From positions 67,432 through 116,443 of the forward strand of contig MGVE01000016.1 of assembly GCA_001800315.1 (NCBI GenBank): a stretch of 49,012 nt of DNA, written 5' to 3'. Position numbers and translations under genes: made by a program. Shown here one piece after another: positions 23,608 to 49,012 of this stretch. Source of the stretch: Elusimicrobia bacterium RIFOXYA2_FULL_47_53 (GTDB lineage: Bacteria > Elusimicrobiota > Endomicrobiia > Endomicrobiales > XYA2-FULL-47-53). The notes beneath the pieces were generated by a model. That model was given only the letters and a program-made list of their open reading frames with translations. It was not told where the DNA came from and did no database searches. Numbering within the stretch: position 1 is the first letter of the stretch; every line of letters begins with the position of its first letter.

Positions 23608-23639
23608 TTCTCTAATTTTCTGTACAACGGATATTTTTT

Positions 23640-23793
23640 GTCCCTGCGATGTTGGTGTGGTATTATCTGATTTGAACCGACAAGTTCCTTTCAGGGAGTT
23701 GCAGGTGAGCTATACGCCTTAGGGCTATAGACCCGGACACCCACTTAATGAAAAGGGCTCAATCAGATGAAACTCACGGCAGAGTGGGGATTT
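23640..23793 (+). ncRNA. ssrS: 6S RNA
   Basis: About 150 bases between zapA and rarA. The ends can pair (TCCCTGC from 23641 with GCA...GGGGA at 23780-23790). A strong stem joins ATCTGATTTGA (23665-23675) to TCAATCAGAT (23759-23768) with one bulged T. The middle keeps unpaired purine/pyrimidine stretches that form the open central bubble, and an apical hairpin is closed by CTATA/TATAG (about 23710-23730). This shape mimics an open promoter and in the known family traps RNA polymerase-sigma70. Wording such as GAACCGACAAGTTCC...CAGGGAG resembles deltaproteobacterial 6S RNAs. The neighbourhood strongly supports the call; exact ends are estimates. A weak TATTTT -10 precedes it. Confidence 0.75.
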
Positions 23794-23801
23794 TCTATTG
23801 T

Positions 23802-43786: not shown

Positions 43787-44149
43787 ATGTGCAAGAGCAT
43801 AATGTTGGTTGACGATGAACACGAGGTCGTGACTTTTCTTGGGAACTTCCTGAAGAGATTAAATATTTCCAGCATTCAGGTGACTTCCGGAGAAGATGCC
43901 CTTCTTGCTTATGATAAGGATAAAATTGATTTTGTTTTTCTTGATGTCCAGCTCAAAGGGATAGACGGCATAGATGTGTTAAAGGGGCTGAAAAAGATCA
44001 ACCCGGACGCAAGGGTTGTGATGATAACCGGAAAAGCCGAGAAGAGTTACCAGGACATGGCTAGAGAATTGGGGGCTATAGATTATATCACTAAACCGCT
44101 GGATTTAGGCGAGTTGCGTGAAAAGATAAACAAATACCTAATTCAATGA
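43787..44149 (+). CDS. Response regulator receiver partnering the HD-GYP protein
   Basis: 120 residues from ATG 43787, chosen because the receiver strand begins at once (MCKSIMLVDDEHE) and GAGG is well placed; an ATG at 43736 adds 17 residues that fit no domain. It has D9-D10, phospho-acceptor Asp53 (FLDVQLKGIDG), Thr in MITGKA and Lys in ITKPL. It overlaps the HD-GYP gene by 4 bases (ATGA), so receiver and phosphodiesterase are made together as separate chains instead of the usual fusion. The kinase that feeds it is not adjacent. Confidence 0.93.
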   Translation: MCKSIMLVDDEHEVVTFLGNFLKRLNISSIQVTSGEDALLAYDKDKIDFVFLDVQLKGIDGIDVLKGLKKINPDARVVMITGKAEKSYQDMARELGAIDYITKPLDLGELREKINKYLIQ

Positions 44150-45300
44150 AAAAAGACTACCGAAAAGAGCTTGAAATAGCGGCACGGCAGATGATTTTGG
44201 TACATAATGCCGATGTCCTTATTAAGCTTATCCTCAAAACAATCCTCCGAAGCATCAATGTAAACCACGCCGGTATATTCCTATACGACAAAGAAAAAAA
44301 AGAATATGTAGTGAAAGTTTCCAAGGGGGAAGAAGGCCTTAAAGTGCCCCAGGGATTCGCGAAAGTAAAAGCGGACAATCCTCTTATTAGTTTTTTTTCG
44401 GACCCTGCCTTTAAATCATTCAACCGCGGATATTTTCTTTCAACCCTCACCAAATCCTACGCAGCGCAGGCAAAATCCTCCGGCAATAAAAAACTTATTA
44501 CCATTTTTGAAAAGATGAAAGATGAGATGTCCTTATTCAGCGCAGATGCGCTGATACCCGGCTATTTCAGGGATGACCTGATAGGAGTGCTGTTTCTCGG
44601 CGAAAAAGCCGACGGAAAACCGCTGACCGACGAGGAACTGGGGTTTCTTTCCGTACTTGCCTCGGATGTGGTCATGGCAATACAAAATGCCTGGCTTTTT
44701 GAAGATTTAAATAAACAGCTGGCGGCTAACAAGAGGTTATTTGACGGCACAATCTCGGCGCTTTCGGGAGCCATTGAAGCAAAAGACATTTATACCGTAG
44801 GCCATACCGAGCGGGTAGCCAGGCTTGCCTTGCAGATAGCCGAGAATATGCAGAATAACGCTATCTCGCAGTCTAAGGCTTTCAGGGAAAACCTGCATAT
44901 TGCGGCGCTTCTGCATGATATCGGTAAAATTGCCGTTCCGGAAATCGTATTAAACAAAAAAGAACCGTTGAATGAGGAAGAATACAAACATATTGTCAAA
45001 CACCCCATTGTAGGAATTGAAATTCTGGTCTCCATAAAGGAATTTGAAGATGTTATTTTAGGCGTTAAATATCACCACGAAAGATACGACGGCAAAGGCT
45101 ATCCTTTCGCTCTTAAAGGCGACGAGATACCGCTGGTCGCCTCAATTATTTCCGTCGCTGACACTTTTGACGCCATGACTTCCGACCGCGCGTACCGAAA
45201 AGCCATGCCGCGCGATGCGGCAATAGAAGAAATAAAGAAAAACAGCGGCAAGCAGTTCCATCCCGAAGTTGTTGATGCTTTCCTTAAAACCTGCCAATAA
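44146..45300 (+). CDS. GAF-like/HD-GYP cyclic-di-GMP phosphodiesterase
   Basis: 384 residues. Residues 10-185 form a GAF-like sensory domain (HAGIFLYDKEKKEYVV, IGVLFLGEKADG). Residues 200-384 are an HD-GYP domain: H220-T-E near the start, His257-Asp258 (LLHDIGK), KHP near 285, YHHERYDGKGYP with GYP 318-320, and SVADTFDAMTSDRAYR. All HD-GYP metal ligands seem present, so hydrolysis of c-di-GMP (or of a related dinucleotide) is expected. It is cytoplasmic. It is translationally coupled to the receiver at 43787. Confidence 0.93.
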   Translation: MKKDYRKELEIAARQMILVHNADVLIKLILKTILRSINVNHAGIFLYDKEKKEYVVKVSKGEEGLKVPQGFAKVKADNPLISFFSDPAFKSFNRGYFLSTLTKSYAAQAKSSGNKKLITIFEKMKDEMSLFSADALIPGYFRDDLIGVLFLGEKADGKPLTDEELGFLSVLASDVVMAIQNAWLFEDLNKQLAANKRLFDGTISALSGAIEAKDIYTVGHTERVARLALQIAENMQNNAISQSKAFRENLHIAALLHDIGKIAVPEIVLNKKEPLNEEEYKHIVKHPIVGIEILVSIKEFEDVILGVKYHHERYDGKGYPFALKGDEIPLVASIISVADTFDAMTSDRAYRKAMPRDAAIEEIKKNSGKQFHPEVVDAFLKTCQ

Positions 45301-48862: not shown

Positions 48863-48892
48863 TTGACATTGGGGTGTAATTTGTTATATAAA
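48863..48892 (+). promoter_or_regulatory. Promoter of the downstream small RNA or leader
   Basis: TTGACA at 48863-48868 is a consensus -35. TATATAAA at 48885-48892 provides a -10, TATATA with 16-base spacing or TATAAA with 18. The start would be near G48895. Confidence 0.7.
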
Positions 48893-48894
48893 TA

Positions 48895-49012
48895 GGGCAC
48901 TGCAAATGGGGTATAAGAGCGTGGGGTGCAAGGCGTTGGCAAGTTCCCTTAAGAAACTCAAAGCAATGGTTTATCCTGTAAAGCGCGCGAAAAAGCTTTA
49001 CGGGTTTTTTTT
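48895..49012 (+). ncRNA. Unassigned small RNA or 5' leader
   Basis: About 110 bases between a good promoter and a strong terminator, with no open reading frame of note. A GCAC/GTGC pair (48897-48900 and 48926-48929), an AGTT/AACT hairpin (about 48942-48958) and the terminator stem are visible. The early wording GGGCACTGCAAA and GGGGTGCAAGGC loosely recalls GEMM-I riboswitches, but the defining 3' helix is missing. Without the sequence beyond the window, it is either an independent RNA or a transcription-terminating leader of the next gene. Confidence 0.5.
48975..49012 (+). terminator. Strong Rho-independent terminator at the right edge
   Basis: CCTGTAAAGC (48975-48984) pairs with GCTTTACGGG (48995-49004), one U-G pair, around a 10-base loop GCGCGAAAAA, followed by eight T residues to the end of the window. 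It ends the RNA starting near 48895. Confidence 0.92.

Follow-up and report, generated by a model that had tools for sequence, protein, structure and literature searches.

A terminator-like hairpin among the signal-peptide codons of a multicopy secreted-protein gene at a contig edge of an Elusimicrobia genome

The 3' end of the stretch of DNA analyzed here (the window: 49,012 nucleotides of Elusimicrobia bacterium RIFOXYA2_FULL_47_53, referred to below as G000, contig C16:67432-116443) carries a promoter and, close downstream, a terminator-like structure, which raises the question as to whether this locus specifies an RNA in its own right or the beginning of a gene. The initial annotation took it to be a transcript of about 110 bases devoid of any ORF, which was thought to be either a new small RNA or a riboswitch-like leader. 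The consensus promoter on which this proposal was based was confirmed: the sequence TTGACA-N16-TATATA occurs only once in the window, 0.16 occurrences being expected by chance when up to one mismatch is allowed. A generic scanner overlooked this promoter because its rule for the -10 box demands a T at position 6. Based on the promoter spacing, transcription is expected to start near 48897, about 9 nt before an ATG codon located at 48906. A match to the same promoter detected in the related genome G001 (contig C37) turned out to be a site preceding aspS and was read as a shared promoter consensus. Since the last base of the window is also the final base of contig C16 (116,443 bp), the sequence past position 49012 cannot be read.

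When open ends were allowed in the ORF search, the supposedly ORF-free stretch was found to contain a frame starting at ATG 48906 (MGYKSVGCKALASSLKKLKAMVYPVKRAKKLYGFF), which runs for 35 codons without any stop and off the contig edge. In this frame, the codons are 80% identical to the N-terminus of P0002, a protein of 1036 aa encoded elsewhere in the same genome, and 94% identical to another copy present on contig C11; they also match a copy on contig C17. They specify the long n-region of a signal peptide and the first part of its Phe-rich hydrophobic core. The end of the window is almost certainly the 5' end of a gene whose product is a large glycine-rich protein, secreted and of a surface or matrix-like kind, and the false call of a non-coding RNA is explained by the contig edge. 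The continuation of this gene beyond the edge is carried by no other contig of the genome. The coordinates of the features discussed are given in Table 1.

Table 1. Features at the window edge and elements used for comparison (window positions unless a contig or locus is named).
Feature	Location	Strand	Remarks
Sigma-70-type promoter	48863-48890	+	TTGACA-N16-TATATA, 0 mismatches
5' end of secreted glycine-rich protein gene (almost certain)	48906-49012	+	35 codons to 49010, open at contig edge
Second possible start codon, same frame	48966-48968	+	ATG here, TTG in the C9 copy (four-copy comparison)
Terminator-like element in signal-peptide codons	48975-49012	+	stem 48975-48984/48995-49004, loop 10, T8 at 49005-49012
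c-di-GMP-I riboswitches of G000	C6:87912-88008, C6:88201-88288, C6:182104-182193, C6:143855-143987, C16:14501-14590		two in tandem
c-di-GMP-I riboswitch upstream of a distant ortholog of the 1036-aa protein	L075:1151-1270, minus strand (G334:C1)		44.7 bits, cut-off 35
FMN riboswitch before ribD	L093:6478-6631 (G000:C8)	+	terminator ends just before start codon; comparison case

The 5' end of this gene is present in four copies in G000, which are located on contigs C16 (the window), C11, C17, and C9 and show 92-98% DNA identity. In C9, the frame stays open and gives an ORF of 1036 aa, which comprises a signal peptide, repeats rich in glycine, and, toward the C-terminus, a DUF11-type stretch, while the C11 copy departs from the family sequence, or is truncated, after about 73-80 codons. 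The C16 and C17 copies break off at contig edges at most 1 base apart, at TTTACGGGTTTTTTTT(A), as is to be expected of an assembler meeting a repeat. The promoter of the C11 copy is identical to that of the window. The C9 and C17 copies resemble the others only from the start codon onward, and the DNA upstream differs: C9 has a different promoter of its own at a similar distance, and no obvious promoter was found before the gene start in C17. Over 70 codons, C11 and C9 can be compared without any indel and show a dS value (0.16) exceeding dN (0.057); in the first 20 codons alone, the silent and amino-acid values (0.086 and 0.066, respectively) show hardly any excess. Incomplete family members are found on contig C11, namely a remnant consisting only of the 5' part (L006:8040-8345) and another consisting only of the C-terminal part (L010:1444-2079, corresponding to C11:59728-60288), which suggests that the family has undergone repeated duplication and decay. 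Two contigs of another genome (L077 and L082, on G308:C43 and C84) end at family 5' ends where their sequences are nearly identical, and repeated 5' ends seem to break assemblies.

Homologues of the protein were identified in 46 of the 341 genomes of the phylum, the full-length ones showing up to 44% identity; a search of viral contigs yielded nothing. In the orthologs of G002, G334, G209, G206, G235, and G339, the signal peptides start at the aligned place. Since the starts of these orthologs correspond to about codons 27-41 of the window-type gene, the first 20-27 residues of the latter form an N-terminal extension confined to this bacterial family, in which it occurs in G000 and perhaps in G001.

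The idea that the locus encodes an independent small RNA, some 110-115 nt long and equipped with a promoter and a terminator of its own, the open frame being incidental, draws on the perfect promoter match and the strong terminator-like hairpin. It is nevertheless very improbable, since the frame is homologous to the 1036-aa protein and the gene start recurs in four copies. Nor did the folding analyses point to a separate folded RNA: the transcript 48895-49012 folds no better than shuffled sequences (z +0.64), the leader segment upstream of the hairpin is less stably folded than 85% of the shuffles, and a structured leader was ruled out on these grounds. Furthermore, no similarity between G000 and G002 was detected by DNA alignment in the leaders upstream of the hairpin, only the hairpin and the T-run being shared. 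The Rfam search suggested in the initial annotation covered the window as a whole and its edge, as well as the other copies and the starts of the orthologs. It returned no family at the edge or in the other copies; the best match at the edge, SpF22 (E 0.44; 17 bits as against a cut-off of 55), was taken to be due to chance. Elsewhere in the window, the same database identified a 6S RNA at 23638-23794 on the plus strand (50.3 bits, cut-off 46.4). The edge is not a new RNA family.

The initial annotation also noted a loose resemblance to GEMM-I, which brings up the possibility that the gene might be controlled by a degenerate or new c-di-GMP riboswitch of this type. The two motifs put forward, CACTGCAAA and GGGTGCAAGGC, fall on the start codon and within the codons, and the resemblance was attributed to chance. 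Most of the similar letters belong to codons, and the leader is unstructured. At the edge, no match to c-di-GMP-I (GEMM-I, RF01051) was obtained in the Rfam search at E values up to 10, and the edge does not reach the gathering score of 35 bits which defines membership. A local covariance model built from four of the c-di-GMP-I riboswitches of G000 and one from G334 gave a best score of 2.5 bits here, versus 42.5 bits for the fifth G000 riboswitch, which had been left out of the model. The class is detectable in this genome, because five true members were found, none of them at the window edge; one is on the same contig as the window but outside it, and the genes following all five appear to begin with signal peptides. 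The c-di-GMP proteins mentioned in the initial annotation may include an HD_5 domain protein encoded at 44146-45300 on the plus strand, which is possibly the phosphodiesterase-like protein meant. A riboswitch of this kind at the edge has hardly any probability left. The suggestion that c-di-GMP can control such genes gains indirect support from the genuine c-di-GMP-I riboswitch that precedes the distant ortholog of G334, although the leader in the window is not one. Taken together, the arrangements in the window, G002, and G334 suggest, without proving it, that control of this gene by elements in its 5' leader recurs with different elements.

As regards the terminator, the structure itself was borne out. 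The hairpin consists of 10 pairs, including one G-U, and has an energy of -14.1 kcal/mol (z -2.4 in comparison with shuffles); a T8 run follows directly, which gives the stable stem-loop and adjoining U-rich tract typical of intrinsic terminators. A generic scanner failed to report it because its loop limit is 8. The frame from 48906 spans the hairpin, and the terminator-like element overlaps promoter-near codons, as required of a ribosome-mediated attenuator. The idea of a leader belonging to a gene beyond the edge was half right: the edge is indeed crossed by a gene, the start of which, however, falls within the proposed RNA and the signal-peptide codons of which contain the hairpin. The hairpin energy is the same (-14.1 kcal/mol) in the C11 and C17 copies and amounts to -11.2 in C9 and -10.6 in G002, which belongs to another family, while in G001, a relative from the same family as G000, the hairpin is weak (-6.3). 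No such hairpin was found in the more distant orthologs of G206, G209, G235, and G339. The length of the T8 run does not differ among the four copies, two of which end at or just after it. In G002, the hairpin sits directly before the ATG of the signal peptide, preceding ATGAAGAAACTA, a natural signal-peptide start, and looks like a classical 5'-leader terminator. The DNA of G002 and G000 aligns across the hairpin and the T-run, and this alignment suggests that the stretch holding the start codon of G002 is absent from the G000 lineage.

Could the hairpin be simply a by-product of the protein sequence? Under this explanation, the gene start would be an ordinary one, and the hairpin and T-run would result from Lys codons (AAA/AAG) being followed by Phe codons (TTT), without any regulatory role. 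Since A-rich Lys codons in front of T-rich Phe codons readily give rise to T-runs, and of themselves favor hairpins ending in such runs, codons were resampled for the same peptide according to the codon usage of the genome in 6000 draws, and the terminator-like elements at least as strong as that observed were counted. In a first run, stretches of at least six Ts were indeed obtained in 36-79% of the resamplings of the G000 copies, and both the weak hairpin of G001, which was equalled in 431 of 6000 resamplings and is not significant, and the hairpin-free distant orthologs are in line with this explanation. The strength observed, however, was reached in only 3 of 6000 draws with the window and C11 type, 43 of 6000 with C9, and 38 of 6000 with G002, where the hairpin stands before the signal-peptide start codon. 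These counts come from a repeat of the resampling in which the codon table had been enlarged and the T-run rule slightly altered; the first run was more favorable (1/3000 instead of 38/6000 in the case of G002, and 0.02 instead of 431/6000 in that of G001). Among the other gene starts, none of 222, 53 of which were signal-peptide-like, had a hairpin at -10 kcal/mol or better; these were the ATG ORFs of at least 200 aa in 449 kb of G000, the first 159 bases of which were scanned in a test prompted by the hairpin having been seen first. A looser scan in which other start codons were allowed (286 ORFs) gave four cases of -10 or better close to the start, and one of these corresponds to the terminator in the FMN riboswitch leader preceding ribD. 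As the four copies in G000 count as roughly one event, G002 provides the only nearly independent confirmation. The hairpin in the window exceeds what its codons require. The by-product explanation is plausible, but falls short of an even chance.

Given the gene start, it is slightly more probable than not that the start-proximal intrinsic terminator serves as an attenuator relieved by translation, and a surface-protein gene start equipped with an attenuator of this kind is the best reading of the locus as a whole, which we hold with modest confidence. Computation shows that a gene starts here, that it belongs to a family with several copies, and that the hairpin is present and stronger than its codons would lead one to expect; we infer where transcription starts, that it terminates in the cell, and that translation relieves this termination. 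The mechanism might operate as follows. Transcription would proceed from about 48897, and early translation from the ATG at 48906 or that at 48966. If no ribosome followed closely behind the RNA polymerase, a transcript of about 115 nt would end at the U tract, whereas a ribosome translating from either start codon would cover the hairpin and transcription would go on. A hairpin located in the signal-peptide codons may in this way throttle the gene. No anti-terminator pairing that would compete with the terminator was present in the minimum-energy fold of the window. As to how this attenuator might have arisen, one speculative and rather unlikely scenario is that a former 5'-leader terminator, such as that still apparently present in G002, was absorbed into the gene after the original start codon had been lost, so that the signal-peptide codons would now double as an attenuator coupling transcription to translation, while a distant relative has an upstream c-di-GMP-I riboswitch instead.

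The c-di-GMP-I riboswitch (RF01051) can precede a homologous gene, as in G334, while the leader in the window has neither its sequence nor its structure; if the attenuator reading is true, the comparison between G000, G002, and G334 would show the evolutionary turnover of such leaders. The pil1 pilus operon of Streptococcus gallolyticus is subject to attenuation-like control, and in the published model (PMC3894217), the ribosome destabilizes the stem-loop. Like pil1, the window involves a gene for a surface structure with a premature stem-loop terminator near its start. In contrast to the window, pil1 has a separate leader peptide with GCAGA repeats varying in length (PMC3894217); the window has no repeat tract, and its T8 run is constant in length among the four copies. 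In bmrB-bmrCD of Bacillus subtilis, ribosome-mediated attenuation makes use of a terminator that falls within coding sequence (PMC4191407), and the window resembles this system in that an intrinsic terminator lies within a promoter-near ORF, where translation could decide on read-through. There, bmrB forms a small leader ORF of its own, for which three alternative stem-loops are described (PMC4191407); in the window, unlike bmrB, no alternative stem was found and the gene carries the terminator within its own signal-peptide codons. If it works, this would be an attenuator that does without a separate leader peptide, and a putative intrinsic terminator lying among the codons for the signal peptide of a surface protein, the gene of which is present in several copies, constitutes a testable control point.
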